Program-made: the position numbers and the translations under genes
Notes under the pieces: model-generated
What the model was told of the DNA's origin: nothing
The model's database searches: none
What the model saw: the letters and a program-made list of their open reading frames with translations, nothing else
DNA from: Rugalucina vietnamica
Lineage: Eukaryota; Mollusca; Bivalvia; Lucinida; Lucinidae
Length of the DNA: 64,000 bases
Assembly: GCA_964017185.1 (NCBI GenBank)
Contig: OZ024880.1
Coordinates: 48,789,337-48,853,336 of the forward strand
Reading direction: 5' to 3'
Shown here: positions 4,796 through 29,300 of the stretch, one piece after another
Numbering within the stretch: position 1 is the stretch's first letter
Layout of the letters: each line of letters begins with the position of its first letter

Positions 4796-7700
4796 TAATA
4801 ATAATAAGCAAATAGTGACTAGCTTATCAATTATCGTTTTAATGCAAAAAACAATTTGCATGTCCTCCCGGCCTTCCATATAATGTAGGTGATGAACGGT
4901 GCGGTATGCTCTACCGTATGGTATGATGGAGTGTGAGAATGATGTGCTGTGCAGTATAAAGCAAGGTGCGGAATTATGCACGGTTCGGTTTGGAGTGTGG
5001 TGCGGTATCATGTACGGTGTGGTTTGCTGTACGTTGCGGTACGATGTATTGTGCGGATGATGTACTGTACAGTATATAGTACGGTGCTGTACGATGTATT
5101 GTGCGGATGATGTACTGTGCAGTATAGAGTACGGTGCGGGATGATGTATTGTGGGATGATGTACTGTGCAGTATAGATTACGGTGTCGTATGATGTTCGG
5201 TGCGGTATGCTGTACGGTGCGGTACGATGTATTGTGCGGATGATGTACTGTGCAGTATACAGTACGGTGCTGTATGATGTACGGCGTGGTATGATGTTCG
5301 ATGCGGTATGCTGTTCGTTGGTATGATGATGTACTGTGCAGTATAGCGTGCGATGCGGTATATATGATGTACGTTGCGGTATACTCACCAACATCTACAC
5401 GTCCTCCGCAAAGTGCCAGTAATCCAATGAAGCAAGCTAGAAGGAATACACCGAACACAACATGGTAGCTGCTCACACCCTCCAGACCATCTGACTCTAC
5501 CTCGGAGCTACTGAAAAGTTGTGAGGAAGCAGGTAAATGAAAATGAGCTGCCAGAAGAGATTACAAACAATCTGGGTTTCCGACCAGGTCTGACACAAAC
5601 CGACCTGTATAGTCACAGAAGTAGCTTAGAAGCTTGAAATTTAAGATTTATGTAGAATCTTTGTAGCAGTTACTGCACAGCTGATCTGCGCCTTTCTTTT
5701 CGCCTATGCATGTTGTTTGCTTTCTTATGCGGTGGCTCAAATCGTCGGCTGAGTGCTATACTGTTCTATCTCCATATTTGGGTCATACCAAGTGTGATAT
5801 ACCGTTGGGATCGGAATCAAAAGTTCTATCTCCTAGTGTGGTCAGATGTTGATATTTCTGCCTAGATTTTATGTAATCTGGGTCACAAAAATATTCCATC
5901 TCCGGGTCATGAAAAAATAAGGACATTTTTTTATGCAAAATGTTCTATGTCCAAACACAAAATTCCTATTTTTCCAAAATTACTTCATTTTGACCGCTAT
6001 TTTTTTTAAATTAAGCTCATTTAGACAGAAAGACATCTTCATAATGCATGTTCACTCTAAATATGAACATTTTGACCTTATTTGAGAGTCTCAAACCTTT
6101 GAACCCAATTTTCTCGAAATGTTGAAAAATGGAGATAGAACACTATAGCACTCAGCCGACGAAATGTGGTTCGTTTTAAAGTTTTATTTAAATCAAACTT
6201 GTTTAAACATCATTTCACTTATTTATTTTTTGTTGAATAATTTTGCATTTGATATTTTCACGTATTATTAAAAATAATCTTTCTAATGGCGTTGTTTATA
6301 TCTAAAACAAATCCAACCAATTATACCTTGAATAATTTTGATTACAGACCTTTTTTATGAAAATTATACTTACCAATTTACACCTGTAGGGATGAGAAAA
6401 TAAAATAAAATCGTTATTAATATTTTGAATATATATAATACACGTTGATGACAATATTGATATAGGTGACGAATATCATTTCCTCATAACAGGCATTTTA
6501 TACAGATCTTAGACGACTATGTTTTCGTTTTGCACATCCAAAAAAATTACTATGATCCACTGACTTGTTGGTTTAAACATTATTTCAATTGTATAGATAC
6601 AATATACATTATAGACAATGGTACATAATGACAATAACAGATATACAATAAGGATTCGGAAGGAAGTCTTGCGACTTATGTAATCCGTTTCCAAATCGTT
6701 CGAAAGTGTGTAAAATTCAAACCCATGACTTGATGTATGTATTATTCACAAATTAATGTTACTTCAAATACAGATTTAGAAATTATATCAAGACAGTACA
6801 AAAATTTGAATATTTAAGTAGTAGTTTGATTGAATTTATAGGCATTTTCACTAAAGGCAGAATCAGAAAAACTTTCATCATGGTCTTGAAAGAATGTCCA
6901 TATCACACTGAATCGTGTATCTGCTCCACGGTGAAGAAGGAGCCATGCAGCCGTAAAAACTCTTCAGACCTAACTAAGGTTGAAATAACACATAGACTAA
7001 CTCGCTGACTTGTTATATTACTTGTTTAAATTGTCAAAACAAGTATACTTATGTCCGTAAGCAAATTATATATGATGATTTCTAACGTGAATTTTCATTC
7101 AGAATCTATCTTTACAAAATAGGTGGCCATGGGTAACTTGAATGGAATTGGGTAAAATATCCAGTTCCAGCCTTTGGTAACTTTCGTAGCCAATAACATT
7201 AGGAAAACTTGCCCATGAATGCAATAAACAGGGATTTTTGAGCTTTAAAAATTAAAATTTTTCAGCGGAAAAAATTGATATTTTTCTTATTTTTGCTCAA
7301 AACATAGATTGTGGGTACATGTTAGAACCGCCTCGCCGACGCGGTTCTAACGAGTACCCACATTCTATGTTTTGGAGCAAAAAATAAGAAAACAATAGGT
7401 ATACCCCTGCATACCCCAGTAGGTATACCCCTGCATATCCCAGTAGGTATATCCCTGCATACCCCAGTTTTACTATAAAAGTGGGGTTCAAGGGGGTATA
7501 CATTACACGGACATGTTTTCGTGATGACATCACGATAGCGGTTCTGTGTAATGTGTGCCCCCCGTACCTCACTTATATAGTACATTATTAAAAACTAAGG
7601 TGTACAGGGTATACATATTTTGCTCCAAAACAAGGTGGTTCTTCTAACGTGTACCCACAATGTTTCCAGCAAAAATATTAAAAATATTGAAATTTTTCTG

Positions 7701-7973
7701 ATGAAACTTGCAATTATTACAGCTGAAAAAAATCTTTGTATATTGCATGGGTAAGTATTCGCATTGTTTTATACGTATTCTGCTGGTATAGTCCGATGTG
7801 CCCGATCCTTGCATTTATTTCTTCAGTTCAAAACAGTTATTCCACTTATTCCATGTAAGAATCCACTCCAGGACATCATTAAAATAAAAAGAAATTTACA
7901 AAGTGAAATATTTACCTGACAAAAATAATAATCCTACAATTAGAGGACAGAGGTGCAAAAAGTTTAACGCCAT
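285..7973 (-). CDS. Gene A: signal peptide + single TM + SPSB-like SPRY protein, 9 exons (one alternative pair)
   Basis: Reconstructed minus-strand gene. Exons in transcript order: 7916-7973 (signal peptide), 6374-6383 (10-nt microexon), 5389-5510 (membrane segment), 4202-4360, then either 3308-3548 or 1794-2022 (first half of SPRY), 1357-1520 (second half), 847-903 and 285-466 (stop TAG). All introns are GT-AG and phases match throughout; the product is 330 or 326 aa. The signal peptide is followed by about 20 residues, then a hydrophobic helix (FGVFLLACFIGLLALCGG), then the SPRY domain. SPRY landmarks are GLFATVGVG, DSLVG, FDIARRKL, YVDCDSGTVGFGS and a late VYPMIG strand, all in the order seen in SPSB proteins, but no SOCS box follows. 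The tail is rich in Lys and Asp (KKDKKDKKDKD) and ends KGFKMFDKFVNN. Inferred topology: type I with cytosolic SPRY, presumably a peptide-binding module. Gene B is its paralogue. Exon structure is firm; cellular role is unknown. Confidence 0.85.
780..838. repeat. (AAGA)n microsatellite
   Basis: Tandem AAGA units in the last intron of gene A, ending a few bases from the splice donor of exon 847-903 (minus strand). Confidence 0.95.
1794..2022 (-). CDS. Gene A alternative SPRY exon, proximal version (5b)
   Basis: 229 nt with acceptor TCTAACAG and donor GTAAGA. It encodes a homologue of exon 3308-3548: both start ALSKGKHVF, share RGLFATVGVGS and DIARRKLV, and use the same entry phase (1) and exit phase (2). 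It shares LFCKPRDSLVG with the single gene B exon, so it is probably closer to the ancestral form. Splicing both versions in series would shift the frame, which points to mutually exclusive use. Confidence 0.85.
2133..2623. mobile_element. MITE with ~50-bp imperfect terminal inverted repeats
   Basis: The left end CACGAGTGGTTAACATGGG is matched by the complement of the right end (CACGGGTGGTAAACATGGG). Similarity continues inward through a GCTCCAAAAGA block on both sides. No coding sequence is present. The element lies in the intron between the two alternative SPRY exons of gene A. No clear target duplication is seen. Confidence 0.7.
3308..3548 (-). CDS. Gene A alternative SPRY exon, distal version (5a)
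   Basis: 241 nt with acceptor ATCTCCAG and donor GTAAGA. It encodes the first half of the SPRY domain, and its ending is 12 nt longer than version 5b, so the frame is kept. Differences from 5b cluster at KWDKDDR/YWPKKER, SEEAEMY/SYNAELF, NSRHSWG/KDRFSFG and the Gly/Ser-rich end; in SPRY folds such segments are often ligand-facing loops. The conserved core argues that both versions are functional. Confidence 0.85.
3577..3833. mobile_element. MITE B copy 1 (decayed)
   Basis: It starts GGAAAACATGTACG and ends GCATGTTTTCGTAATG. The central palindrome is partly lost (one GGCGGTTCTAACG arm remains). It sits about 25 nt upstream of the 5a acceptor of gene A. Confidence 0.8.
4752..4807. repeat. (AAT)n microsatellite
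   Basis: Runs of AAT/TAA units with one interruption, in the intron between the membrane exon and exon 4202-4360 of gene A. Confidence 0.95.
4900..5385. repeat. Degenerate minisatellite (GATGTACTGTGCAGTATA-type units)
   Basis: Tandem variants of a GT-rich unit with recurring GTGCGGTATGATGT and GTACTGTGCAGTAT motifs, ending at the membrane-exon donor. The long open frames across it (HRTVYCTVHH-type) are repeat artefacts. Confidence 0.8.
5545..5745. mobile_element. MITE A copy 1
   Basis: Carries the family blocks TTTCCGACCAGGTCTGACAC, AGAAGCTTGAAATTT and TGATCTGCGCCTTT, and ends ATGCGGTGGCTCAAAT. Lies in a gene A intron. Confidence 0.85.
6374..6383 (-). CDS. Gene A 10-nt microexon
   Basis: The minus strand reads TTTTCTCATCCCTACAG, then the exon GTGTAAATTG, then GTAAGTATAA: a strong polypyrimidine acceptor and a strong donor around ten bases. 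With the phase-1 signal exon and the first base of the membrane exon it gives Gly-Val-Asn-Cys in frame. Gene B has a 10-nt exon at the same place and phase, which makes chance unlikely. Confidence 0.85.
7201..7526. mobile_element. MITE B copy 2 with internal triplication
   Basis: Intact core palindrome around 7325-7350. The segment GTAGGTATACCCCTGCATA is present three times in tandem (7410-7465), unlike other copies, which have one. Confidence 0.9.
7595..7765. mobile_element. MITE B copy 3, partial
   Basis: Lacks the left third. It retains CTCCAAAACA, GTGTACCCACAATG and the ATTGCATGGGTAAG terminus. Confidence 0.7.
7916..7973 (-). CDS. Gene A first coding exon, signal peptide
   Basis: Starts with ATG (minus) and encodes MALNFLHLCPLIVGLLFLS, then one base of a split Gly codon before donor GTAAAT. 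Length (58 nt) and phase are identical to the gene B first exon (30652-30709), which begins MAL as well. This pairing supports the start. Confidence 0.8.
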
Positions 7974-8240
7974 TTTTCTCCTGGCGCAGGGCACAGTGGC
8001 CGTCGGTATACAATAAAATCTAAATCTATTTTATTTACTTCTTTGTTTTGGCTTTTCCCATAGCTACTTAAAACATATGCACTATGGTCAGTTTTGGCGA
8101 ATCAGGGTGTACAATATATTTGAAAGCGGTCATTTTTTTTCTTTTAAATTCAGTTTCCTGTTGCTTAACTTTTTTTTGGTTTTAGGCTGGTTGTTCGATA
8201 CGGATAGTTTACATAGAGATAAAACTGCTACACAACTATT

Positions 8241-8342
8241 CATCACGAAAACATGTCCGTGTGATGTATACCCCTTGAACCCCACTTTTATATAGAAAAA
8301 CTGGGCTTTGCAGGCTTATTTTCGCTCCAAAACATAGATTGT
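8241..8342. mobile_element. MITE B copy 4, truncated
   Basis: Only the CATCACGAAAACATGTCCG end to the CCAAAACATAGATTGTG block is present. Confidence 0.75.
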
Positions 8343-8449
8343 GAGAGTGACCCCACGAGTTAGCTTCGAGTGGTTGACATCAACTTATTAATATTCCAGT
8401 GATATCAATATAAAATAGATAAAATAAATATTAATTATCGCCTTCAGGG

Positions 8450-8517
8450 ATGCGATGGTCTTCCTTGTTATTTCTAGGACTTGCACTGAGCTGTCCTTGT
8501 ATCGCTTCAACCATCAG
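8450..8517 (+). CDS. Orphan signal-peptide exon candidate
   Basis: ATG opens a hydrophobic leader, MRWSSLLFLGLALSCPCIAS, ending in phase 2 at donor GTATGT. A good acceptor (CTTCTTTTACAG, ends 8792) follows; joining to it gives only ten further codons before TAA. No downstream coding exon that fits was found before gene D, and gene D exon 2 needs phase 1. It may be the start of a small secreted peptide, a lost gene or chance. Confidence 0.3.
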
Positions 8518-8927
8518 GTATGTCGACAAAAAGTTTAAAATGATCACTCAATTAAACTTTTACACCCCGTGGAAGTGGCCAAATGGCTGCTAAATAGTGT
8601 TTATATAAATTGGATATTATACATGTGTGGGCTTCTTCATAAATACAATATTCAATGGATTACTTAATAGAATTTATACCTATTGTCGAGAAGGTCAACA
8701 ATTAAGGTTTAGAGAAAACAAATCTAAGCCTGTTACAAAAATTGGTAACAAAAAACGATAAAATCACCTTTTCCATCTGACTTCTTTTACAGAAAATCAA
8801 TACTGTGTTTCAAACGTGTGTAAGAGTTTCCTTTCATCTTTCAGGTAGATCTACTACAGCTGTTCTTGGTCTATGCTACGTTTTCTCTTGTGGCTTTCCC
8901 CTAATTTCCATTGCCCTAATTTTAAAG

Positions 8928-9028
8928 CGGCAGTGCACATTGATGATAATATCACTACCAGAATTGCAAAAACTAGTGTGGCATTCGGAAGACTTAAATT
9001 TAATAGACTTAAGCGGTTCCACTTAAGT
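8928..9028 (+). pseudogene. Non-LTR retrotransposon fragment (older host copy, left part)
   Basis: Encodes AVHIDDNITTRIAKTSVAFG then jumps to RLKRFHLS, i.e. an internally deleted copy of the reverse-transcriptase C-terminal region also present at 9103-9864. It is cut at 9028 by insertion of a second, opposite-strand copy and resumes at 10894. Confidence 0.8.
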
Positions 9029-10893
9029 GATAGTTCGTCTCTCACTAATGAGAAAGACCATCATTATTTCTTGAATAGTGCTGATGTGTGTTGGTGAGTT
9101 CTTTAATGGCTGACTAGGCCAATTCTGGCTCTAAACTGTCGGTTGCAAGTAGAGCAAGTCAATGTCATAGAGTCTGATGGTGGCACATTTGTTTTGGCTT
9201 TGCGCTCTCTTCGCTTTCTTTCAGCTTCACAGATTCTCTTCTTTTCATAAAGAGCTGCTCCTTTGTTGATGAGACCTCGCCACTTTGATCGCTCCTGTGC
9301 AGTCTGTTCCCAGGACCCCATTGGTATTTCGAAATCCTTCAGAGAGGCTTTGAGGGTGTCTTTGTAGCGTTTCTTCTGGCCACCTTGAGAGCGCTTTCCC
9401 TCCTGTAGTTCTCCATAGAAAACTTTCTTTGGAAGTCGCGCATCAGGCATTCTTATAACATGGCCAGTCCATCTTAGCTGTGCTAGCTTTAAGACTGTAT
9501 GCATGCTTTGCATCCCTGCTTTCGTCAGGACCTCTGTGTCTGGAATCTTGTCCTGCCACTTGATTTTTAACAACTTTCTCAAACAGCTTAAGTGGAAATG
9601 GTTAAGTCTCTTTGCATGGCGTTGGTATACTGTCCAGGTCTCACAAGCATACAAGAGGGTTGGCAGTACCACAGCCTTGTAGACTTTCAGCTTGGTGTCA
9701 AGCTTGATTCCATTTCGCTCCCAGACATTTGCACGGAGTCGTCCGAATGCCACACTAGCCTTTGCAATTCTGGCAGTGATCTCATCATCAATATGCACTG
9801 CTCTGGAGAGAGTGCTTCCCAGGTAGGTGAACTTGTCAACAACTTTCAGTTTTTGCCCATTCACAGTGATGGTTGGTTCATTATATGGCTTTCCGGGCGC
9901 TGGTTGGTGTACAACCTCTGTCTTTTTTGTGCTGATTGTGACTGCTCATAGTTATCACATGACTGTGAGACTTGATCCATTGCTCTTTGCATTTTTGCCT
10001 CTGTGCTGGCATTCTTATCCATATCATCTGCATAGAGGAGCTCATCTAGCACATCAGTCTGGACCTTAGTTTTGGCTTGCAACCTTCTGAGGTTGAATAT
10101 GTTGCCATCAAAACGGTACCTGATTGGAAAACCAGTGTCACTGTCCTGAAAAGCATCCATAAGCATGGCAGAAAACATCATGCTGAACAGTGTTGGTGCC
10201 AGAACACAGCCTTGTTTGACCCCATTTGTTACTTCAAATGGTTCTGAGAACTCTCCATCATTTTGCACACGTGCCTGCATGCCATCATGAAACTGCCGCA
10301 CCATTGCTATGAATCTGGGTGGACAGCCAAACTTGGCCATGATTTTCCAGAGTCCATCACGACTAACAGTGTCAAAAGCTTTGGTGAGGTCAACAAACGT
10401 CATGTATAGATCTACATTCTGTTCTTGGCATTTCTCCTAAAGCTGTCTTGCTGTGAAGATCATGTCTATTGTCCCTCTGTCTTTTCTGAATCCACATTGA
10501 CTTTCTGGGATAAGTCCCGTCTGATCAAGATGAACATTCAGACGATTCAACAGAATTTTTGCAAGTATCTTCCCAGCAATTGATAGGAGGGAGATGCCTC
10601 TGTGATTGTCACAGACTTGAGGATTTCCTTTCCGCTTGTATAGGTGGATTATGGATGCATCCTTAAATTCTTGTGGGATAGCCTCCTTTCTCCACATACA
10701 GTGAAACAACTCTGTCAGTTTCTCTGCCATGGGTAGCCCCCCAGCCTTGTAAACTTCGGCAGGAATTGCATCTGCACCTGGGGCTTTGCCAGATGATAGT
10801 TGTTGAACTGCTTTTCTTGTTTCCGTAACGGTAGGAAATTCATCTAACAGAACATTGCACTCTATCTGTGGAAGTCTGTCGATTGCATCCTCA
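9029..10893 (-). pseudogene. 5'-truncated non-LTR retrotransposon inserted into its own relative
   Basis: The minus-strand reverse transcriptase begins mid-domain (NEDAIDRLPQ) and continues through the fingers/palm segment (SGKAPGADAIPAEVYKAGG, CGFRKDRGTIDMIFTARQL), DLTKAFDTVSR, GVKQGCVLAPTLFS, the catalytic YADDMD, KFTYLGSTLSRAVHIDDE, ACETWTVY, a WTGHVIRM motif and a CSTC zinc-finger-like end. Frame breaks near 10405-10435 and about 9865-9960 make it dead. It is flanked by a perfect 35-bp direct repeat (8994-9028 and 10894-10928). The clade is not assigned; the arrangement resembles the RTE/jockey-type elements often annotated beside craniofacial development protein 2. Confidence 0.9.
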
Positions 10894-11215
10894 TTAAATT
10901 TAATAGACTTAAGCGGTTCCACTTAAGTAAGCTGTTTTAGAAAATCAAGAGGTAAGACAGGATTCCAGACACAGAGGTCATGGCGAAAGCAGGGATGCAA
11001 AGCATGCATACAGCCTTGAAGCTAGCACCACTAAGATGGACTGGCCATGTTATAAGAATTCTGATGAGCGACTTCCAAAGAAAGCTTTCTATGGAGAATT
11101 ACAGGAGAAAAAGCGCTCTCAAGGTTGCCAGAAGATACATTTATCACCGACTTTCAGTTTTTATTCCATTCACAGCGATATAGTTGGTTCATTATATGGC
11201 TTTCCAGGTGCTGGG
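10894..11215 (+). pseudogene. Non-LTR retrotransposon fragment (older host copy, right part, with inverted end)
   Basis: Continues the 8928-9028 fragment: RLKRFHLS, then IPDTEVMAKAGMQSMHT and LRWTGHVIRI with stops. From about 11145 the sequence matches 9840-9900 in the opposite sense relative to the element, an internal inversion of the kind produced by twin priming. Confidence 0.75.
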
Positions 11216-11221
11216 TGACAT

Positions 11222-11425
11222 ATCACAAAACATTTCCGTGTAATGTATGCCCCCTTAAACCCCATTGTTATATAGCAAAATTTTCTTATTATTCATTGTG
11301 GATACTCGTTAGAACCGCCTCGGCGAGGCGGTTCTAACGTGTACCCACAATGTATGTTTTGAGCCAATACATTAAAAAATCAATTTTCCCACAGCTAAAA
11401 AATTCTCTGTATGTTGCATGTTCAT
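11222..11425. mobile_element. MITE B copy 5, shortened
   Basis: Has the GAACCGCCTCG core palindrome and both flanking blocks, but is missing the GGGGTATGCAGGGGTATACC segment. Confidence 0.8.
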
Positions 11426-11429
11426 GTTT

Positions 11430-13217
11430 ATACAAGTTGGCTTCTTGAAGAAGCCAAGTTTTGGGCTAGTCTGGTTTATGTCAAGTAAATACAAAATGGG
11501 GTGGTTGTATGTAGCTGCTAGGGGCTATATACATATACATTTCCATGATATTCAAACATCTTTTTTCTTTGAAACTACATGGTCTATGAAAGCCATTCCG
11601 TATGGTGTTTCCTTGCAAAGGAAAAAAGTTACTTTTATTTTATTGACCTATGTCAAATGACCATTACATACAGCAAAATATTTCAAAAATCTTCTAAAGA
11701 AACGGAAGTCTTGGAGCTGACAGGATGTGAATAAAAAACACATTACATAGGCTAAAGAAAATGATAAACTGATTGATTTCTTATGAAACTTTAAATGGTA
11801 TTTACATGTATTGGTCAAAAGGCCTTTGTACAATCGAACACTTGTTAATTTGCAAAAGATAGAGTAATTGATAGAAAATCTCCGCTTTTATGCCAAATAT
11901 AGAGAAAAAATGTCCTCAAAGTTAGTGTTTACATTAAATAGATGATAATATTTGACTAATAACAAAGTTGACTTGAGGTACAAGTTGACGACAGTACGAG
12001 TTGACCACTGAAAAAGTACGAGTTGACCAGGAACGAGTTGGTTAAAAGTACTAGTTGACCATAACTCATGCAGGCTACCGCCTCTAACCCCCAGTAAAAG
12101 TTAAGATTTTGTCACCGTTTAAGGCAGGATTTTTAAACAAGAGCATGCAGTGCGCATTTTAGGCACACCTCGTGGCACGAAAACTACGCAAATAGATCCA
12201 TTACAACCTGACCACTATACTGTTTTGGGCTGATGCCCAAACAATAATGATGTAGCAATTGGGACCAATTTACAACTGGGAGTTCTACAATGTGTTTATA
12301 AATCATGACGACCTTTACAGATTTTTACGGCAAGCGGGCAGTTAAGGTCAACTTAGGTCAAACATGCAGAAAATTGTTAAACATGTCTTTGAATGGAAAA
12401 ACTTTAGGAAATGGGCAGAATGACAGAATATTTAAATGATTTTGAAAACGAAACTAACCCCAAGTGTTATCCTCAATATCATGTATACATGAATATGACC
12501 ATAATAGTCAAACAAGTTTATTGGTATATATCTCAGGTGAGCGTTTACAGGACCATTGGTCCTCTGTTTCAACTGACTGGTTTTTCTGAAGTTGTTTATT
12601 ATTGTCATATAACAGGACAAATATCTTTCTTCCAAAGTCAACTGTGACCATGACAAAGGACTGTCAGACCACAGAGACAATCCAAAAGAACGCAGGCAAA
12701 CCTGAAACCTGTTGAAGGTAAAACACCCTATTTAGCCATGTATTGTACAGTCTTTGCGATTTTTTCTGCTGCTGCCTGGACAACTGTCTGGCAGATTTTC
12801 ACAAAGTCTGAACTGTTATAACCATAAAACCTAACGCTTTTGTTCGTGTCCCATTCATACTCGTACAAACCGGGTTAACCAATGGTAGTACAAAAGACAA
12901 ATGTTAATTTGAACGTCAAGAAAATGTTTATTGGCGTGTCTAACTATTGATCATGACTGCGTCAGTATTATGCGCAGGGAAGCGTGTGAGAGAATAAATA
13001 AAAATAAATAAATAAATACATAAATAAAATAAAACAAAGTGCGACTTAAGGATTATACACCGACCGTTTTCGTCGACATGTATAACTTTGTGAAGAGCTG
13101 TGTCGGGTCAGTTTTGACATTTCACAGTCTTATCTCATCGCCTCCAATGTGTTCTGTCGAGTTTGTATATCTTAAAAGTACACTTGACATTTGGAAAGTT
13201 TAGTTTTTGTGTGATAG
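11430..13217. other. Intergenic, no gene recognised
   Basis: AT-rich, with only short open frames that do not look coding. It holds five loosely spaced copies of a GTACGAGTTGACC motif (11975-12062) and an AAATAAATAAATA stretch near 13000. Confidence 0.5.
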
Positions 13218-13547
13218 ATGGCCACCATGCTTACATTGTATATGATTTGCGTGCTGGAGTTAGCCGTGGTTATACGGGGCAAAATTAGAAACATTCCTTC
13301 AGAAGAAATGTTACAGGAAATTGCAGGTTTGTATTTTACACGTACTTTGCTTAAAACTAATTTAACATACGAATACCTATATTTCATATCATTATTTAGA
13401 GAACCATATTCTCCATTTGTTTGATGTTCCAACAGAAATCAGAGCTATTATTATTATGTCTTCATTTCATATGACGAAGTGGTCATCCACTTAAGTGTTA
13501 TCCTAGACTGAAATTGGAGTTGAAGTCAGACTAACTACAAGTACACA

Positions 13548-14202
13548 AAGATTCAAAGATTCAAAGATTCAAAATTTAATCTGCATTCAATCCAAAACAT
13601 ACAGGATTATGACAGAAACATATAACATACATACAAGATGAAAAATGACAACTACATGTACACTATATTTACAGTACATTTGCATTCTACGATGTACAAA
13701 ACTATACTATGAATATGACTTATGTAGTGTGACATACCATTACACTTGGCAGTGCAGCCGTAACAGTGTATAAATGTATTTTTATTATGTCCATAAAATG
13801 TCAAATAAAACTAGTTGGAAACTAATGCACCTGAATGTTGACTGGAGTCCTGATATTGTTGCCTAATCTTTAAACAATTATCTACATACAGGACAACAAT
13901 TGGTATCGATATTGTTGCCTAATCTTTAAACAATTATCTACATACAGGACAACAATTGGTATCATGTCCAGTTCACTAACTGACATAATATATAAAAACT
14001 TATCATAAAGACAAAAATTGTCAAAATTAGGAACTATGGATGACATATCTTTGAACAACTGTTTTCTCAAATCGTCATATGCTTTACAGATGCAAATAAA
14101 ATGAAACTCGTCTTCTATGGCTTTCAAGTTGCATGTTTTACAAAGCCTTAACTGTTTTGCTGTTCTAGCATATCTTCCAACTTCAACCTCTAATACGGGC
14201 AT
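13548..14202 (-). pseudogene. Non-LTR retrotransposon 3' part
   Basis: The minus strand encodes the end of a reverse transcriptase ORF (LEVEVGRYARTAKQLRLC, CNLKAIEDEFHFICICKAYDD) and a 3' UTR ending in tandem ATTCAAAG units (13548-13572). A 55-bp segment is duplicated in tandem at 13852-13963. It continues the fragment at 16873-17768, which ends KLRISNHRL. Confidence 0.8.
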
Positions 14203-14268
14203 GGCACGAAGTGCGCGAAGCGCACTGAGGCTGGGCCGAAGGCCCAGCTGCGTGCCCGCCTATAGGTA
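14203..14268. repeat. GC-rich double palindrome
   Basis: Two short hairpins, GTGCGCGAAGCGCAC and GCTGGGCCGAAGGCCCAGC, at the exact left edge of the block that splits the LINE. Confidence 0.75.
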
Positions 14269-15169
14269 ACGCGTACACACGGGTAAATGAACTCTGATGT
14301 TGTTTACCTAACTAACTTTGTGCACCTGAACGTCCGGTCCTAGTCTCGGGGGATATCGCTAATCTCCCTATCTCGCGATAATTCGCTATCCCATCGGTAG
14401 TTCTAGATAAAATATACATCATTTTTCCACCCATGATTATACAGTTTAGCTTCTTTGTGGACAATATATTTTTTCGTTTCACTTGAGATCAATTTTGTTT
14501 GCAAAATTACAAAAAAAAAAAACAAAAAAAAACAGGTTACGTCACTTCTTCAGCGCGCGAGAATGCTCGATTATCGCCATAATCGGGTATCACAATTTAG
14601 CGAAACAGGTGCGTCTTAATAGCGAAAGTGGGTCGATTCGGCCGCGAGTCGTTACATCCAACCCCCTGGTGAAATAATGTCATTTGGCGTGTCACCAGTA
14701 AACTATTCATATTCAGATCAACTTTCTTTCTAAAGTTACAAAAAATAAATAAAAATTACGTCACAGTCACGCGCGAAATTCTTCTAATATCCGGTGTTAC
14801 TATTTACCGGAACCAGAACGGGCCGGAACGATGCGTCTAAATAGCGAAATCCGGTCGTTTCGGCCGCGTATCGCCGATACAACCTTAAATCGGACATCCA
14901 AATGCAAGTAACTGGTCGTTTCGGCTCCGTGAGTCGTTCGTTCTTCAGTCAGCTACCCGAGGGTTTTACCTGGCGCACAAAATGAACGTTTTGGCCCAAA
15001 AATGACCCCCAAAATACCCAGTTCTGTTCAGAGAGGGGACCATGATGTCCCCCAAAATTAATAAATATTTCTTGTTCCTGATATTGTCCTATTTTGTCAG
15101 AATGTTGTTTAGGAGTTGTCAGTAGTGGGACATTGGTCCCCTAAATTAATACTCTGAGGTCGATGGGGA

Positions 15170-15805: not shown

Positions 15806-15855
15806 AGGACAGGACAATGGCACAACATATACTTTTACAGTAAGTTTTGTTTAGT

Positions 15856-15857
<2 letters not shown>

Positions 15858-15898
<41 letters not shown>

Positions 15899-16060
15899 CC
15901 TTTTTTTTTCCTGGGCGAGACCAGTACTATAGTAGGTTGTTTTTTATGGGTTTGTTGTTCCGGGAGCACCCGAAGGCTCAACCGGGAGGTTGATTTTTGT
16001 TGTTGTTTTAGGAGAAGCCCGTGATCGAACCTGCGACCCCTAAATCAATAATAATTTCAA
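15858..16060 (-). mobile_element. Possible retroposon (poly-T tail and B-box-like head)
   Basis: A long T run (15858-15895), then anonymous sequence, then GATCGAACCTGCGACC, which on the minus strand resembles a tRNA B box (GGTCGCAGGTTCGATC). No convincing A box or target duplication was found. Confidence 0.35.
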
Positions 16061-17768: not shown

Positions 17769-18490
17769 TGCATGTTGAGAAAAAAAAAACAGTATCTGAA
17801 AGACATGATTGTTGTGCACATGCCAAATACATGCCAAGTAAGAAACGCAATGGTACCATTCATCAATTTTTCATACCGATCATAAGAAATGACAAAATTT
17901 CATTTATACCATTGGAAAGGAGTATTATTCGGTTGTTCATTGCATATTTTAATCCAGGAATTAAAATCTGCTCTAGAAAATTGGTCATAAAATGTTAAAG
18001 CTAAATTGTTCGGAACCTTTTGAATACACCGCTAGGTACGCAGACACTTAATCTTCACATCTTTGTTCAAACACGGGTTCTAAAGGTTTTGTAACTCTTG
18101 TCGTTTGAACAGAAATTGCATGCAGCTGGAGACAAACCTTATAAACCATAAAAGTTTGAGGCGTGATTTTGAAAACTGTAATGGTCAATACAGACCAAAT
18201 TAGAGTTTTATAGACGAAAAACATTAGGATTAAACTTCCAAAGCTACAAAACTAATTAAAAATGTATTGTTATTGCACCTTGCAATTGAAACACTAACCC
18301 AAATACCCAAATACCCAAAATATGTTTGCCGGTTGCATCAATGTTTTCTTTCTGTGTTTACTTCAGGTACACCCGTCGTACTGAATGATCCAGAACATTT
18401 CCAACAGTTTGTTATGTCTGTAGTCGAGTTATTTACATCACACGCACAGAAAATGGATGCACTGGGTGAGCAGCGACTCAAAATAAAACT

Positions 18491-21414
18491 GGAGGTGGGT
18501 TGATTATGTATTTTAAAAACTCCTTTGTTTGTGCACGACGCACAGAGTTTGAAATATCAAATTTGGAAACCATTTGGGCAGAAGTTAAGCTTCCAAATGC
18601 AAAGCCTTTCTTGTTGTGCACAGTTTACCGTCCCCCAAATGCTAAGAGCGAATGGGTTGACTTGTTTGAGGAGGAGCTTTCCATAGCTCAAACGACCGGC
18701 CTTGAATATATAGTAATGGGTGACTTTAATATTGATCTGTTATCAAACATCCCGAGAACAAAATGGTCAAATATGATACAGATATTTGACCTTACTCAGC
18801 TCATCACGAAACCAACCCGCATTACGCAAGCTACGGCAACATTGATTGACCATGTCTACACAACGTCTCTTGACAATATATCCGAAAGTTTTGTATCAGA
18901 TTTATCTGTCAGTGATCATTTTCCCATATGCATAACCCGTAAAGTTGGTGTTAAAAAGTCCAAAGATACTCACATTTCCACCATATATCGCTCATTTAAA
19001 CATTTTAATGAAAATCAATTTCTGCATGAACTTTCGCTAGACTTAGAGAGTTTTACCCCTTGCCATGAAAGTATAGAAGATGATTTTAGTACATGGTTCT
19101 CAATAATTTATAAAAATTTAAATGAACATGCTCCCCTGAAAAATAAAAGAGTAAAACATAAGAGATTGCCAGAATGGTTTACACCTGATATAAAAGAAAT
19201 GCAACATAAACGAGATTTAAGCAAACGTTTGAAACAATGGGAGGACTACAGAAAATTTCGAAACAAAACAAGACAATTAATAAGGCAAGCAAAACGCAAA
19301 TACTTCTCTGATACAGTTGAAAATAGCAAAGATACTAAGGCAATATGGAGACATTTACTGTCTGTCAGTTCCGGAAAAAACATGCAAAAAAATCACCTCC
19401 CAGTCGAACTTAATATAAATAATGAACGCATAATTGATTCAACAAAAGTTGCATCTAAACTAAATGAATTTTTTGCTTCAGTGGCAGAGCAATTTGAAAT
19501 GGAAAGTACGGAATTATCTATCACCGACAGGGATAAGATTAAAGCTTTCGTTGATTCTAAAGTCCCTACCAGCACTAAGTTCTCTATTCCATACATAACC
19601 AGTGATCAAGTGTTGCACTATATCAATAAACTAGATTCATCAAAAGCTACTGGGCTGGATGGCATCGGGCCAAAGATTATTAAACTTGCAGGTAGCTGCT
19701 TATCGCCATCCATTGCTGAACTTATCAATAAAAGTATAACTTTAGGACAATTTCCATCCCAACTTAAACAGGCAAAAATATTCCCAATTTTTAAAAGTGG
19801 GTCTAAGACAGACCCGTCAAATTACAGACCTATCTCGATATTGCCTACGATATCCAAAATTTTCGAGAGACATGTTAATAAGCACTTAATGGGGTTTTTA
19901 AATAAACATAAACTTTTATTAGAAACTCAGTCTGGATTTAGACCAAAGCATAGTTGCCAAACGGCTTTAATTAGACTTATTGATACCTGGATGGAATGTA
20001 TCGACAAAGGAGACATAATAGGCGCACTCTTTCTTGACTTCCGCAAAGCGTTCGATCTAGTTGATCACAGAATCCTACTTGATAAGCTTGCACTATATAA
20101 TTTCAGTAACTCTTCTCTTGAATGGTTTGACTCATATCTACATGACCGTCAACAGGCTATGCAAGGCCAACACGGATTAACGGAATTTTCAAAAATACTG
20201 TCTGGCGTACCTCAGGGTTCCATTTTAGGCCCTACTCTTTTTCTTTTATTTATTAACGATTTGCCATTAAATTTTGAATTTTGCTTATCAGACCTTTACG
20301 CTGATGACGCGACAGCTCATACTAATGGCAAGGAAGTCGATACCGTCGAATATAAAATACAAGGAGACTTTGGTAATGCTAAACATTGGAGTAAACGGAA
20401 TAATCTTCCAATAAATTATAAAAAATCCACCTGCATGATGTTAGGCACTAGGAATCGACTTATAGAAGCGCGTAAATTTAACATTAAAGTAGATGACATT
20501 TGTTTACAAAATGTCTCAACACAAAAAGTATTAGGCTTGCATATTGATGAGCACCTTACATGGTCAATTCATATAGATCACTTATGCTCAGCCATCTCGA
20601 GTAAGATTTCGCTTCTAAAACAATTAGCAGAGTACGTACCAGTAGAGGTACAAAAACGTTTTTACCAAGGTTATATTGTACCATTGATAGATTACGGATC
20701 CGTCACTTGGGGAGCAGCCTCAAAGTATAATATGAGAACGGGTATCGAAATTACAAAAACGCGCCGCCAGGATAATATTAAAAGCTGATTTCGACACATC
20801 ATCTGATGATATGTTTCAAAATCTCAACTGGCCTTCAATAGAAAAAAGACTTAAATATAATAAGGCAGTGCTAACATACAGAGCTCTCAATAAACAAACT
20901 CCGGACTATATTTCAAGTTTATTAAAACCTTTATCTGAAACTCATTCATTGAATTTAAGATCTTCAGAAAATAAATGCCTACATATACCACGATCACATA
21001 CTACACTTTATGATAACTCTTTTACATGCTCGGCCCCGAAGCTATGGAATGCTCTTCCTCAAACAGTCAGAGAAGCAGAAACTCTTTTAACTTTTAAAAA
21101 ACAACTAAAAAATGTTCTTGAAATCTAAGCATTTTAAATAATCTTTTAACAGTGCTACCTTGTTTGTAAAACATTCCCTTATCTTTTAAAGAAAATGCTC
21201 CATGTTATATCTGTCACATATTTTAAAGAATATATTTTATGTTTTATGCGCTCGTTTTGCACACATATTTTGTATATATGTATATAGTTGTAATGTTGTT
21301 ATTTTAAGAGGACCGCAAGGTAGAATAGCTTCAGCTAATTGTGTTATCCTCTATAAACAATGTATAAATAAAATAAATAAAAAAAATAAAGAAAGAAAAC
21401 GACAAGATACACAG
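18491..21414 (+). mobile_element. 5'-truncated LINE (endonuclease + reverse transcriptase) inserted in gene D
   Basis: The 762-codon frame starts inside the EEP endonuclease (TVYRPPNAKSEW, YIVMGDFNIDLL, LIDHVYTT, VSDHFPICIT) and contains a complete reverse transcriptase (SKATGLDGIGPKIIK, NYRPISILPTISKIFE, LFLDFRKAFDLVDH, GVPQGSILGPTLFLLF, LYADDATAH). A single frameshift near 20748 separates the last ~120 codons (RAARIILKADFDTSS to LKNVLEI, stop at 21128). The 3' UTR ends in an A-rich ATAAATAAAATAAATAAA tail. AAAACT occurs at both junctions (18485-18490, 21415-21420). CR1/L2/jockey type. Few lesions suggest a young insertion. Confidence 0.9.
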
Positions 21415-22504
21415 AAAACTTCAAATTCACGACGGAGAAATGATAAAATTGTCGACAGAGAAGGAGAACATGGCAAAGGAAATGCGTAAACTGCGGGGTG
21501 ATAATAAAATGCTGTCCAGAAAAATTCGTTTTCTCACCGATAAGGCCTTAAAGCTTTCTAGAATAGTTCAGTTGCTTAGTAATGAAGTTCCAGAATTTAA
21601 GACCGAAAACAGACCTTTATTTTCCCAAGCAGATGGTGAAGCTAAGAAAACTAGGAAACTGGATAGCACATTACAAGCGAATGCAACATCGATAATACAC
21701 AATAATGTCAGTGAGCTACAGAAAACCACAGTAAGGAAACAAGGTTGCGGGAAAAATAAAGACATTGCACGGGATTGCCCAAGAAACATTCCTTCAAAAC
21801 GGGATTTTCCCCACAGCGACACTGATATTCTACATTTGGTAACTACCCATGGTACCGAAATACAACGATTGCGGGAAGACATTGCTGCTTTAAAGAACGC
21901 CATGCATAAATAAAGCGCCGGTTCTACTTATGTCCGTTGGGGTAGAAATAGCTGTAGTGGAAATAGGACAGAACTAGTTTATTCAGGTTACGCAGCGGGA
22001 TCAGATTATATCGACAGTGGTGCCGCAGCGAACTTCCTTTGTCTGAGCCCGGATACTCTTTGGGGACATTATAGCGACGCTCTCGCCGCGGGTGCTAAAG
22101 TGATGGGTGTTGAATATGAGTTTTACAGCGCAGCTCCTGGAGATACAACAGCTTTCTTTAACAAAAATCTACACCAAGAGAATGCGCCCTGCAGCGTTTG
22201 TCGTTCGTCTAGACCAACCGTTATTATGATTCCTGGACGAAACCAGTGCTACAACGGTTGGACCTTAGAATATAAAGGATATCTTGTTGCCGGCTTCTCC
22301 AATCGTACAGCGGCGAGCGAGTATATTTGTTTAGATGACAATCCGGATGTTGTACCCGGGGGCCAGGCCGATCAAAATGGGGCGCTACTCTACTTGGTGG
22401 AGGGGCGATGTGGTTCTCTCCCCTGTCCGCCGTATGTGCACGGTCGTGAACTCACGTGTGCTGTCTGTTCTAAATAATCTGAGTACTAAAAAACAACAAT
22501 AAAT

Positions 22505-23107
22505 AAATAAATAAATAAATAAAAGAAAGACAGATGTTGTGCTTTTTCGATTACGTTGACATGTGGTTGTGCAATCAAAAAGGTCGTTTGAGACTTGAAC
22601 GGGCTTTTTAAACAAGAAGTGAAAGAATTGCACTAAGCAGCAAAAATCAAAACAGTTGAACTGACCAGCTTCGTCAATTTTCTGATCCGCCGGCAGAATT
22701 TGACCTAGGACATGATATATAGATTCCCTCTCTGAGAAATAAAAAGTCTAGTCTGGTTTGTTATTTGTTTTTATTTTTTGTTTAATTTAATTCTTAGAAA
22801 GAAGAAAACTGATAAACCATACCAGCAGGAAAACATGTCATGTCCGCCGGTTAAAACTTTGCGATTATTTTTTTTCTTTTCACAGCAACAAAGATAATGG
22901 CACAGTCAAAATTGGTTAAGTGTAACAAGCGTTATTTGTTATTTGAATACACATTTCTCTCAGATTAATATGTACGATAGAATAAAGTAAAGAATAGATC
23001 ATTGCACAATCAATCAAATATGATAAGATATAGTCAATGGCACAATCAGTATACTACATTTTGGTAGAGTAAAACAAAATATCACAGAGCTTCATGAAAC
23101 AATTAAT
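22505..23107. other. No gene recognised
   Basis: AT-rich DNA after gene D with (AAAT)n at 22498-22521 and no recognisable exon or repeat family. Confidence 0.4.
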
Positions 23108-23282
23108 GAGCCGCAACGCGAGAAAACCTGACTTTCCATGGTTTCCGACCAGGCCGGACAAAAATTGGTCTTTACAGCCACAGAAGAAGGCCAGAAGCTT
23201 GAAATTTCGGATTTAAGAAATAGATGGGGTCTTTTTATCCACTTGAGAAACCAAGTTACTAGTATCTCATGATGCGGCTCAA
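23108..23282. mobile_element. MITE A copy 2 (shortened)
   Basis: Ends TGAGCCGCAACGCGAG and ATGCGGCTCA; lacks the central GCTGATCAGC hairpin. It ends about 20 bp from the gene B stop codon, in its 3' UTR. Confidence 0.9.
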
Positions 23283-23303
23283 ATAATTTTAGACAATTGT
23301 CTA

Positions 23304-26300
23304 TCATTCTACGGGTTGTTTTTTCTCGTCGTCTGGTGGTGGGGCGCTGTTCTCGTAAGGTGGAGGGGCTTGAGCGTAGCCCCCGGGGACCGGTTGTGGT
23401 GGTGGGTAGATCTGAGCCCCACCGGGGGCTGGTGGCGGGTATCCCTGAGCCCCTCCCTGAGCATACTGAGTATGTACAACTGAAATAAGGAGAATACAGA
23501 CGGTCACGTGAATGCCATTAATATGACGGTTAATGCAATAAAAATATAACTTTTACGTTTTACGACCTCGACGACAAGATTTAGTTGAAATCTTTTTATT
23601 TACTAAAAATCAAATACTTATTTCAGTAATAGATTGTTGTTTAGATGAAAAACTCATGTAACGAATCAACCAAGTGTTTCTGTAGCTCAGTGGTGGGTGC
23701 TCGTGTGGTAAGCGAGAGGCTTTGGGTTCGAGTCCCGGTCGGGCCACCTTTTTCCGCCCCTGTGGAATTTGGTGGCAAGTGAGGGTCCGTGCTCGGGCTG
23801 CGAGTGCCACAAGGTACATGCATATAAACGGTAAGAAATAATTAATGAGCCGCGACGCGAGAAAACCGTTTTTCGGGAGATCCGACCAGCTCTGATATAA
23901 ACCGGGCTGTACAATCACAGAAACAGGCTAGAAGCTTGAAATTTCGGATTTAAGAAGAAGAGAAACTGTACTGTCCGTGTAGCGAAAACAAAAAGCTGAT
24001 ATGCGCCTTTGTTTTCGCATAGGCAAACATCCGGTTTTCTCATGACGCGGCTCATTTACCATTGGTCACTGCGACTTGTCCACCTGGTGGCACTACCACG
24101 GTGGTCGGAGCAGGGGCTTGGCCTTTCGTCTCTGAAAAGCAATGTAAATAAAAAATCTTGGCATACAAGCTATACAAACTTAATGATCGCGTTGTTGGGC
24201 AAGGGTTTGTCGTCTTGTTGGTCATACGTATTGTGATATTCTATGTAGTGTCAAACGGGCTGTTTTCCCAACAAGCCCCCGTGGCAAAGTTGTGAAACTT
24301 ATTGAACAACTATCAAAACCTTTACTATTAAAAGCCTCAGATTCGAGATAACTATCGTTTTTACCAAATCACAGAGCTTTTTCACAAAATCATGGAGCTT
24401 TTTCACCAAATCATGGAGCTTTTTCACCAAATCATGGAGCTTTTTCACCAAACCATGGAGCTTTTTTCACCAAACCATGCACCTTTTTCATCAAACAAGG
24501 TATTAAATGAATAGGCCCTATTCATTTCTAAATTTGAACGTGTAGCATACCTGAGCCTCTGTAAGTCATGGTGATCTGAGCGTTGTGACACATGCTACCC
24601 AGCATGGCGTAGACCGGGAAACGATCCCGGGGTATATTGAAGGGTGCTCCCCAGTACTCGTACTCTGACCCGAACCCGAGGGTCCCGCTGTCACAGTCCA
24701 CGTACATGAAAAATCTGAAACAGACCAGGTTTTAATTGGTTCGAATTTTTTTTTTTTTGGACTAGAGCTTAACAAAGGTTTAATACTGGCTTTCAGAGGA
24801 ACCGTACACTCACTCGCCATATACCATACACTCACTCACGCCCCTCCTCTTTGAACTAGAGTTGTGTCTCCCCATGAAATCGACCATCACCGACCTTCAT
24901 TTATCTTTAACTACGTATATAGACATTGCATTTGAAGCAACTACTTATTGCTCCAGCACCTTGCCAAATTGTAAATGGTTCCCACGGTTCTGATCAGTCT
25001 TTTTACCTTTATACACTTTGTCTTAACTTCATTTTATTTTGTTCTTTATAGTACTTATTCTTGATGGCGGCTTAAGAAACCAAACTTTTAGTGTGTTGTT
25101 CTTTTGAATGTATTCCCCAAAGAAAAACTCACTTGTCCGGAACAGCAGTTTTAGGCATGGTTCCCACAATCTCCCCACGGTGTATTAGCTTCCTCCGGGC
25201 GATGTCTAGACCATATGAATTCGCATCCATACCTACCAGAGAGTCCCGGGGCTTACAGAACAGCTTTGCTTTGTCACTACCCACCCCGACCTGGGCGTAC
25301 TGACTCCGGTGGTTACTGAGCCAAATGATCTCAAACACGTGCTTCCCCTTGCTCAGAGCTGAAATAACGAATAGTTCTCACCCTGTGAAACGCGTATCCT
25401 TTATTAACAAAATTGAGCCACCTCGTGGGAAAACCAACAATGTGGTTTTTGAACATGTCCGACACAAACCGGCCTGTACAAGCACAGAAAAGAGCTAGAA
25501 GCTTGAAATTTCGGATTTAAGTAGAAGAGGAATTGTACTATCCGAGTAGCGAAATCAAAGGCGCTGATCAGCTTCGCGGTTACTGCGAAGCTGATCTGCG
25601 TCTTTGTTTTCGCCTATGCAGATTGTTGGTTTTCCCATGAGGCGGCTCAAATAGGACATCCCCTCATTTCGATTTGTCTTAATATTATTATTTCCAGAAT
25701 TATTTTTTCTTTGTCGGTGGGTTGTTGCTTTACGTTGACGCCCAGCAGCTAAAGTCATTTTGGAATCGTCAGTGACCTCAGCCAGGCTGTTCGTCGGCAA
25801 TTCTCACAGAGGCAGGTTACCAGTATTCAACGGTCATTCCTTTACACACTCTGACTGATAAACACTCTTCTTGATTCAGCAGAAGAGGAAAAATGGCCAT
25901 TACACATTTGTGGGACATTTTCATGATCAAATCTCCATGGAAGAACTACGCAAGACTAGAGCATCGATCGGGGTCCGCTTCGTAATTAAGATTTCGTGCC
26001 AAGAAGAATTTCTATTTCTTTTTTCTGTTTTATAATTGGTTATGTTTAATAGGTTGCTGTTCTGTAACTATACAAATTGACCCTTCATGTCATGTACTTA
26101 CGTGCCCCCCATTTGGCACCATCTGTTTCCCAGCCTCCAGTCCTGTGTCGGTGCACCATATTATGGCTGAGAATGGTAAAACCATCTGAAGACCCAGTGA
26201 TTCCTGTGTCAATCTGTGGGTCAACCTGAATAGTCTGTACCCATGGCGGCACGGTTCTGGCTGAAATATACAGAATATGAACCAGACGTAATCCTAGATC

Positions 26301-29300
26301 ATAATAAGTAGAATAGGGGACTCTGTGTCGCTAGGACTGCACGTATGCAGCGGCCACAACGTACGTCATATTCAATATGACCAATGTGCGCATGCGCAGC
26401 AGTATCGCCAAAGAGGCCCATATACTACTCCGATATACATTTTTAATCGAAATTCTTTGCACATTGATAACAGATAGTGTAAACATACGCTGCCATAACG
26501 TAACCACAGCTCTAAAGGTTCCTGTGTTCGCTGGGGTATTTGTTGACAGATTTTGACGTCCATCCTTTTCGTCTTCGTCAACAAATCTGCTTAATAGCTC
26601 ATAGAACATTATTTATTCACGTTTATTAATCTATATAATCCTTTAATTAAGTTGTTTTTTGTTCCTTTCTAGATCTTCAATCTTTTGAAGCTTTTTTCTA
26701 TCAGATATAGCACTGCAAATTAATCACAATACATTATTTCATGCTCTTAACTACGAATATAGAAACGAGCTTAGAAAGTCCACTGCACAATCGTGATTTT
26801 TAAATTTAAATTAAAGCATGACCCCAATGCAGATCAGTTAACTCATTTAAGCCTGGTGTCCCTTTTATGGGACATAGGCAAACAGAATAGCCCCAGATGT
26901 GACGCCGCAGAACGCGGCGTTCCATCTGGGGCTGTTCTGTTTGCTTAGAGAATTCGAATTTTCATCGAAAAATTGAATAAAGTTTAAAAATCGCTCCTGA
27001 TGCCCCTAAAATGAAAGTGGACTCACCCAAATGATAATGATGGGAAATTACATTCGTCAAATATGGGTTAAAAAACGAAATTATCGTAATTTGAGCTATG
27101 CACTTCAAAAACATCCATACAATTTATTTGAACAATGACACAAGGATTGATATACCCGAAAAAGTGAAATTCATCGAGGCCGTCACAGCAATCCTTATCA
27201 AATTTTAGCAGTATTTCATCCAAACGTAGCTTTCACATGCTACTTTATTGACCCCGCCGACCTTTGATCCACCTAAGCTCAGATCTGAGCTATACTTACG
27301 CGGTGCTACAGGTGTCCCTCCGCAGAGTGCAAGCGCTGCGATGAGACAGATGAGTACTACTACTCCCAGAGCCACGTGATAACTGGTGACGTCATCAAGA
27401 CCGTCGTCTTCGAGAGTGGCGCTGCGAGCAAAGAAATTGGGGAATTAATTAGAAAGTAGATTAATAAAAGTAGAATGGCTACAATGCAAAAAAGTAACAA
27501 GACCTCCCCCCCTTTTCAAATGGTGTCGAAAATTGTAGGTTTGTAGGTGCTTGTTAGAAACAAACGCTTGTTACGTACAGATGAAATTGTGAGTAAAATT
27601 TACCAAAGAAAAATGTTTTGTCCAAAAAAATGGCTTGCACCAGTATTTCATATGGGTTTGAAATATACATTGATAGCATGGGTACTACTTTTGTATTAGT
27701 AAGACAAAAATGTTCAAAATTCGGTCATAGAGTCTGGGCATTTATGCAGATTCGAAATAGGCAGTACAAGCGCAAATTTCGCAATAAACATATTAAAAGA
27801 CGATTACAAATGAGCCGCATCGTGAGAAAACCGTTTTTTTGCCTATGCGAAAACAAAGGCGCAGATGATCAGCGCCTTTATTTTCGCTACACGGATAGTA
27901 CAATTTCTCTTCTTCTTAAAACCGAAATTTCAATCTTCTAGACTTTTACTGAAACTGTACAGGCCGGTTTGTGTCAGACCTGGTCGGAAACCCCGAAGAC
28001 TGGTTTTCTCGCGTCGCGGCTCATTAATGGCAACGGAAGGACTTTATACTCACCCGCTCACACCTGCAAATGAAAAAGTATCAAGTTCAACTTAATATTG
28101 TTTGCTCAGTTTAAGTCACTAATACGTTTGATAATTCAAGTTCGGTAGATCTATTTTAAGTAAAGTTTAGTCAAAGGTCTGAAAAGATGTAATATTATAA
28201 GAATCTTACATGAGTGTCAGGTATGGATAGACAAATCTGTCCCGAGGGTCACATTTTGGCATCACGAGGCTCGCCGAGTGATGCCAAATTGTGACCTGAG
28301 GGACAGATTTGTCTATCCATACCTTACACGAATGATGGATTCTTTTTCTTGCACGCCTTAATGCGGCGTAGCTTGATTTTTATACTATTTACCTAGAAAA
28401 ATGCCACAATCGCGGCGTCCGCCATTTTGATTTAAAACGTTTTGACGTCATTGTGACGTGTGCGCTTAGCGACGAAATTACGTGACGTCCTATACAACCA
28501 GTGTTAAAAAAGAACATTTGAACGCAGGGTGCGACCGGGGTGAGATAACGAGGGTGAGATAAATAGAATCCATCATGGGTGTCCAGTGGAGATAGGAAAA
28601 TCCCAACCCGAGGGTCCACCCGTTCCAGTGGGAAACGAGGCTCGCCGAGTTTCCCACTGGAACGGTGGACCCGAGGGTTGGGATTTTCCTTTCTCCACTG
28701 GGCACCCATGATCGATTCTTTTTCTTACATACTCCGATTTTATCCTTTTACCGGTAACGTAACCTGGTACCGTGCTTTAACCCTTGTGACGTTGTGCATA
28801 TTACGGATATGACGTCAAATGTAAATAAATCGTTGTCAAAGTCAATAGTGATGTAGTTTTTATTCGTTTTTATTTTAAAACGAGCGTGATTCAAGAATAC
28901 TCGCTGTGAAAAACATCACTTTTGTCTAGTTTTGGTGAACGCCATTGCTGCAAGCAGTAGAAACGATCGAATTATATCGCGTGCTTTTCTTATCTTGCAT
29001 GAGCAACCAAACCAGCAGTGTAAGATCGATTTATCTACCACCACTAAAATACCGGAATTTTTCTATCTTTATGGTAGAGGTATGTAAGAAAAGAATTTCT
29101 CACATGGGGTAAAACGTTGGATTTCTCTATCTGGTGTGCAAGAAATATACATATATTTAAATCATAACTTTTTCTTTGAACATGCAATGAAAGTTCCCAA
29201 TGCTTTGTCAATATTGACACCGATTTCCTGAAGGGCTAATTTAATTGAATTTGTAGAATTACTGACTATTAAACGGTCACGAAAACACCTTATTCATATG

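Follow-up and report, generated by a model that had tools for sequence, protein, structure and literature searches.

Internal exons of a few nucleotides (nt) have been described from several groups of organisms. The sources report plant microexons of 1-15 nt (PMC8831610), a single-base exon in Arabidopsis APC11 and constitutive exons of 6 nt and 1 nt (PMC4674806), a single-base exon in Fusarium CYP621A, and exons of 2-5 bp from Drosophila and humans (PMC12940212); for human constitutive microexons, the flanking introns are reported to tend to be shorter and the splice sites stronger (PMC4317164). As to introns in signal peptides, those of phase 1 are reported to be over-represented at cleavage sites, and their proposed location is in codons for glycine, a residue enriched at positions -1, -3, -4 and -5 (PMC1626468). 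Here we analysed a 64,000-nt window of the bivalve Rugalucina vietnamica (G000:C12:48789337-48853336; genome searched, 1.09 Gb in 47 contigs), which holds two related SPRY genes, A and B, each with a ten-base exon between a signal-peptide exon and a membrane exon. Very likely this exon is real and an obligatory coding microexon in a family of three predicted single-pass membrane proteins; it would supply the c-region of the signal peptide.

The exon is internal, within the 15-nt limit for microexons and placed between predicted functional splice sites; it measures 10 nt in the three paralogues found (genes A, B and a further gene C) and ranks first among the candidates in each. Like the plant and fungal ultra-short exons, as these are presented in the sources, it is tiny, required by the frame, conserved among relatives and of a kind often missed by annotation; unlike them, it belongs to an animal gene and lies at a predicted signal-peptide cleavage site, and those cases are supported by RNA whereas this one is known from DNA alone. 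The term 'signal peptide' does not occur in the main text of the plant microexon survey (PMC8831610). As in the signal-peptide introns described (PMC1626468), the intron after exon 1 is of phase 1 and lies in a glycine codon, at -4; unlike them, it is followed ten bases on by a second, phase-2 intron, which makes the codons of the cleavage site an exon of their own. The sequence-only reading had called constitutive exons this short rare: the size is indeed uncommon, with the exons of 6 nt and 1 nt cited above as precedents. Constitutive, frame-essential microexons are a known kind, and the present one is a new, conserved example with an unusual position; among the matches listed in the literature searched, no microexon was reported to encode a signal-peptide cleavage site, which is no proof of absence.

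Other classes of small exon fit less well. Neural microexons (the SRRM4/eMIC programme) are usually a multiple of three in length, are alternatively spliced and have UGC just upstream; here the length does not divide by three, and TGC is present in one of the three genes. The micro-exon genes (MEG) of schistosomes carry their coding sequence mostly in short exons divisible by three; here there is one 10-nt microexon, and the other exons of genes A and B measure 57-241 nt. In immunoglobulin V genes, L-PART2 is about 11 nt long, encodes the last leader residues and is part of the V exon. Unlike L-PART2, the ten-base exon stands as an exon of its own, and the proteins are unrelated. The likeness lies in a leader split in two by an intron (L-PART1 and L-PART2; PMC7555362).

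Both genes are on the minus strand of the window, gene B at 30709-23304 and gene A at 7973-285. They are arranged in tandem, as had been claimed, at a separation of 15.3 kb, with a long interspersed nuclear element (LINE) in between (open frame at 18470-20785, plus strand, with endonuclease and reverse transcriptase domains). The transcript models comprise eight coding exons each, gene A having one alternative exon in addition; every internal exon end is GT-AG, the phases are consistent and a terminal stop is present, giving joined reading frames of 993 nt (with exon 5a) or 981 nt (with exon 5b) in gene A and of 987 nt in gene B. Comparison of A with B gave pN 0.32 and pS 0.74 over 307 aligned codons, with synonymous sites near saturation; since pN is far below pS, both look like working genes. 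In the SPRY part, 116 of 180 residues are identical between A (with exon 5b) and B.

Exon 1 of gene A (7916-7973, 58 nt) carries the start codon and the hydrophobic part of the predicted signal peptide in an open frame, ends in phase 1 at the donor cag/gtaaat and has counterparts in B and C. Exon 1 of gene B (30652-30709) likewise encodes a predicted signal peptide and measures 58 nt when counted from its putative start codon, the one matching that of gene A; three further in-frame ATGs, also open, lie upstream (30718, 30742 and 30808). The ten-base exons were found where the sequence-only reading had placed them, with AG and GT borders: GTGTAAATTG in gene A (6383-6374), between ctacag and gtaagt, and GTGTGAGCGG in gene B (28063-28054), between ttgcag and gtgagt. 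The flanking introns measure 1532 and 863 nt in A and 2588 and 632 nt in B. The first intron of gene B also contains a tandem array (29720-30266) of about 25 copies of a 22-bp unit with 91 percent matches.

The phases explain what the exon does to the frame. Because exon 1 leaves its final codon incomplete at one base and the 122-nt membrane exon (exon 3) opens with a third codon base, one base modulo three is missing between them; the ten-base exon leads from phase 1 to phase 2, and the protein across the junction reads SGVNC/SSEVE in A and SGVSG/ATLED in B. If it is left out, a stop follows after 23 residues in A, 39 in B and 31 in C, in agreement with the earlier claim that skipping ruins the frame. 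Since skipping loses the frame, inclusion in essentially all transcripts is likely.

We ranked the exon against every AG..GT exon of at most 300 nt within the intron that keeps the frame open, namely 120 candidates in gene A and 193 in gene B. Matrices derived from the remaining 13 donors and 13 acceptors of the two genes (own matrices) placed the ten-base exon first of 120 in A (19.1, runner-up 8.5) and first of 193 in B (17.3, runner-up 10.1), and it was again first in both genes with generic splice matrices entered by hand. The idea that it alone links the signal exon to the membrane exon is thus borne out, as the sole well-scoring join. Its splice sites had been called strong, which is borne out in part: they are mid to high by the generic matrices and mid-range by the own matrices, the gene B acceptor scoring 7.6 against 7.2 for the weakest of the 13. 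When the introns were shuffled with dinucleotides preserved, exons of at most 300 nt matched or beat the score by the own matrices in 2 of 300 shuffles for A and 12 of 300 for B, and exons of at most 30 nt in 0 and 4 of 300; with the generic matrices, the counts were 0 (A) and 1 (B) of 300 at the longer limit and 0 of 300 in both genes at the shorter one.

The scan was also extended beyond the two introns. Over the whole window, on both strands and with no demand on the frame, five candidates of at most 30 nt reached the gene B score by the own matrices (both ten-base exons and three others of 11, 19 and 23 nt), and with the generic matrices the two ten-base exons alone did so. In 200 kb of flanking DNA, both strands included, nine candidates of at most 30 nt reached the gene B score, one of the nine having a length of 1 mod 3; none measuring exactly 10 nt reached it there.

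The strongest evidence comes from gene C, which settles the reality of the ten-base exon as far as DNA can. A genome search with exon 5 of gene B gave seven matches, three of them the window's own exons and one of the others gene C. The membrane exon, used as the query at E up to 10, matched three places, namely A, B and C, all three with the ten-base exon; these counts are lower bounds, and diverged family members may be missed. Gene C (L030, G000:C4:71184989-71188210) is a whole further member of the family on another contig of the same genome. It starts with a signal exon of 61 nt and an intron of 350 nt; the ten-base exon, GTGCGCAATG, is bordered by tacag and gtaagt and followed by an intron of 442 nt and a single exon of 880 nt corresponding to exons 3-8. 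The exons join in a frame of 951 nt with a terminal stop. Its ten-base exon ranks first of 37 legal candidates (18.3, next 12.5), with matrices built without gene C. The length and phase of the exon are those of A and B, so that the conservation proposed for two genes extends to an additional paralogue.

The five introns by which exons 3-8 are divided in A and B are absent from gene C, which has kept both introns flanking the ten-base exon. On the SPRY tree it groups with A (FastTree 0.94; IQ-TREE ultrafast bootstrap 82, which is moderate), and therefore C has probably lost the introns that A and B have in common, with those around the ten-base exon retained. The pattern, with exons 3-8 fused and two 5' introns kept, resembles partial intron loss from the 3' side. 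Given the near-saturated pS between A and B, the length of the ten-base exon has been held over a long time.

Other SPRY loci of the genome were set aside. Judged by eye from their translations, two of them seem not to belong to the family, L034 resembling an F-box plus SPRY protein and L002/L033 a true SPSB. L035 is a distant SPRY gene of the same genome; the 8 kb preceding it (L036, G000:C12:51858200-51866200) is a tandem repeat of about 974 bp, judged by the spacing at which open frames recur, and the N-terminus is not covered. Further SPRY matches are L001, which was translated, and L003-L008. Five stretches on viral contigs fitted a pattern, none of them being confirmed as a relative, and ARAGORN and Rfam scans yielded nothing informative on taxonomic position.

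The position of the exon relative to the signal peptide was assessed with a von Heijne-type weight matrix, gene C being scored to residue 44. The best N-terminal cut falls after residue 23 in A (11.9), 23 in B (10.1) and 24 in C (7.2), in all three genes behind the residue that is encoded jointly by the ten-base exon and exon 3. As the cut directly follows its last codon, the exon encodes residues -4 to -1 (GVNC in A, GVSG in B, GAQC in C), position -3 being V or A and position -1 being C or G. The ten-base exon thus probably encodes the last four residues of the predicted signal peptide in all three genes, and the earlier placement of these residues just after the signal peptide is probably wrong. 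By cleavage score, a measure unrelated to the splice score, the exon ranks second of 120 legal candidates in A and first of 193 in B.

We propose that exon 1 would encode the n- and h-regions of the signal peptide and that the microexon would supply the c-region, including positions -3 and -1, which signal peptidase recognises, and would bring the membrane exon into the right frame by a shift from phase 1 to phase 2. A likely origin is that two introns were inserted around the cleavage site with ten bases between them, the first of them at a glycine codon, a common place of phase-1 introns in secreted proteins.

Several points weigh against this reading. The gene models are known here from genomic DNA, and the matrix used for cleavage was entered by hand, as were the generic splice matrices. 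With the own matrices, the 12 of 300 shuffles (4 percent) that reach the gene B score make the evidence from a single gene, B above all, suggestive and short of conclusive. In gene A, a 7-nt candidate has a marginally higher cleavage score than the ten-base exon (11.99 against 11.91), its splice score being -10.4 against 19.1; also in A, exon 3 is preceded at a distance of 37 nt by an in-frame acceptor that could bypass the ten-base exon, with a score of 4.0 against 9.5 for the normal exon 3 acceptor and 7.2 for the weakest of the 13. In gene B, a site behind the membrane helix scores 10.44 against 10.13 for the predicted cut, probably because the helix mimics a signal; the gene C scan, which ended at residue 44, stops short of the corresponding region.

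The loss of frame on skipping also admits a regulated cassette, in which skipping would lead to an early stop and destruction of the messenger RNA, and inclusion would act as an on/off switch for the membrane protein. The length, not a multiple of three, and the stops after 23-39 residues in three of three genes are what such a switch would need; however, TGC, the mark of SRRM4 when just upstream, lies within 30 nt upstream in a single gene of the three, so that this one motif examined gives no conserved regulatory sign, and the splice scores of the ten-base exon are within the range of the neighbouring exons, all of which makes the switch unlikely. Recursive splicing would have the first bases of the exon, once joined to exon 1, rebuild a donor by which the exon is removed again. 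Exons of this class are known, and those described are mostly retained (PMC6224609). In gene B the rebuilt donor CAG/GTGTGA scores 7.1, just over the weakest of the 13 real donors (7.0), and 8.6 by the generic matrix; in A and C it scores 5.0 and 1.1, under all 13 (7.0-13.4), and is therefore not conserved, and removal of the exon breaks the frame. With a rebuilt donor equal to real ones present in B only, and there marginally, we consider this explanation very improbable.

It could also be that exon 1 and the ten-base exon are an artefact of modelling, and that real transcripts start at another upstream exon joined directly to exon 3. First exons are hard to predict, the model comes from genomic sequence, and the alternatives enumerated were single exons within 6 kb and 240 nt. 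Among these, exon 1 is the sole first exon into the ten-base exon with a good cleavage score in A (seven candidates, the next at -1.9); in B the best four of ten candidates are in-frame starts of exon 1 itself, followed by one at 1.2; and the order of exons 1, 2 and 3 is repeated in gene C. An artefact thus seems as improbable as recursive splicing. Alternative internal exons, alternative exon 3 acceptors and alternative first exons were all enumerated and rejected on score.

The proteins of A and B begin with a hydrophobic N-terminus and a short acidic ectodomain, after which come a second hydrophobic stretch with its peak at residues 39-58, a SPRY domain and a tail; from this layout we infer a cleaved signal peptide, an ectodomain of about 15 residues, one transmembrane helix, an SPSB-like SPRY domain and a variable tail. 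The ectodomain and the predicted transmembrane segment are encoded by exon 3 (A, 5389-5510, with a tblastn match to B and a hydropathy peak at residues 40-58; B, 27300-27421), and the SPRY domain by exon 4 (part 1; A, 4202-4360; B, 26102-26260), the central exon 5 (see below for A; B, 25133-25358, one copy) and exon 6 (part 3; A, 1357-1520; B, 24551-24714), exons 4 and 6 of A being phase-consistent and matched to B by tblastn. Exon 7 lies at 847-903 in A, where it is phase-consistent, and at 24060-24131 in B. The frame is completed by exon 8, which encodes a Lys-rich cytoplasmic tail and the stop in A (285-466) and a proline-rich tail with a PPPY motif and the stop in B (23304-23479); a KMFDKF stretch near the end of the tail is common to A and C.

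The joined protein of B exceeds the Pfam SPRY cut-off (27.1 bits, cut-off 26.3), A with exon 5b remaining below it (16.7); both forms of A have matches among the solved SPRY domains of SPSB proteins. Of the solved sequences, GUSTAVUS and SPSB1, 2 and 4 come closest, with E values against GUSTAVUS (CG2944, 2ihs) of 1.4e-16 (B), 9.1e-17 (A with exon 5b) and 4.5e-17 (A with exon 5a). No SOCS box family was reported for A (exon 5b form) or B at E up to 1. In SPSB1, Tyr129, Trp217 and Gly218 are named as binding the (D/E)(I/L)NNN peptide, with Arg77 as the fourth residue named (PMC2923778). The first two of these align with Arg and Cys, and the third with Pro (A) or His (B), SPSB1 numbering having been placed tentatively on the GUSTAVUS alignment by motif; Arg77 is not safely alignable. 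Unlike SPSB and GUSTAVUS, these proteins carry a signal peptide and a membrane helix, both predicted, ahead of the SPRY domain; they gave no SOCS box match and have replacements at key peptide-binding residues. With no SOCS box reported and the three peptide-holding residues replaced, they are therefore not SPSB proteins, though their SPRY domain is of the SPSB type. Our best guess at their function is a membrane-tethered adaptor or receptor that presents the SPRY domain to the cytoplasm.

Gene A has two central SPRY exons, 5a (3308-3548, 241 nt) and 5b (1794-2022, 229 nt), both 1 mod 3 in length, which are intact tandem copies with 48 of 75 aligned residues identical; genes B and C have one copy. 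With one of them the frame of gene A gives 330 or 326 residues, whereas both lead to a stop after 205 residues and neither to one after 153. Exactly one is therefore allowed per transcript, and by frame the predicted exons are mutually exclusive.

Other features of the window include a 249-residue open frame just upstream of gene B (32628-33374, minus strand), proline-rich with PPxY-like motifs by eye and with no Pfam match at E up to 1, and a 348-residue open frame with nine C2H2 zinc-finger matches (38858-39901, minus strand). A 187-residue open frame (21914-22474, plus strand) has no Pfam or NCBIfam match at E up to 1 and presumably resembles short-chain collagen C4-like proteins of molluscs and sponges. 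A reverse-transcriptase-like stretch was seen by eye at 9106-10922 (minus strand).

The ten-base exon is far below the size thought to permit simultaneous binding of both splice sites, and its constant length of exactly ten bases across three diverged genes, of which one is without most of the other introns, makes this family a clean and testable case. Since just the codons of the predicted cleavage site are set apart in it, an annotation without this exon would leave the signal peptide missing or garbled and give the protein a wrong destination, and ordinary gene finders would probably overlook it. It is quite unlikely, although marginally less so than the two least probable explanations above, that splicing of the ten-base exon decides entry into the secretory pathway and, with the exclusive choice of SPRY exon in gene A, sets receptor presence and ligand surface; if true, splicing would set both the presence and the ligand surface of a membrane receptor. 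For the family as a whole, the arrangement suggests a route by which a phase-1 signal intron, together with a second intron nearby, may give rise to a microexon.

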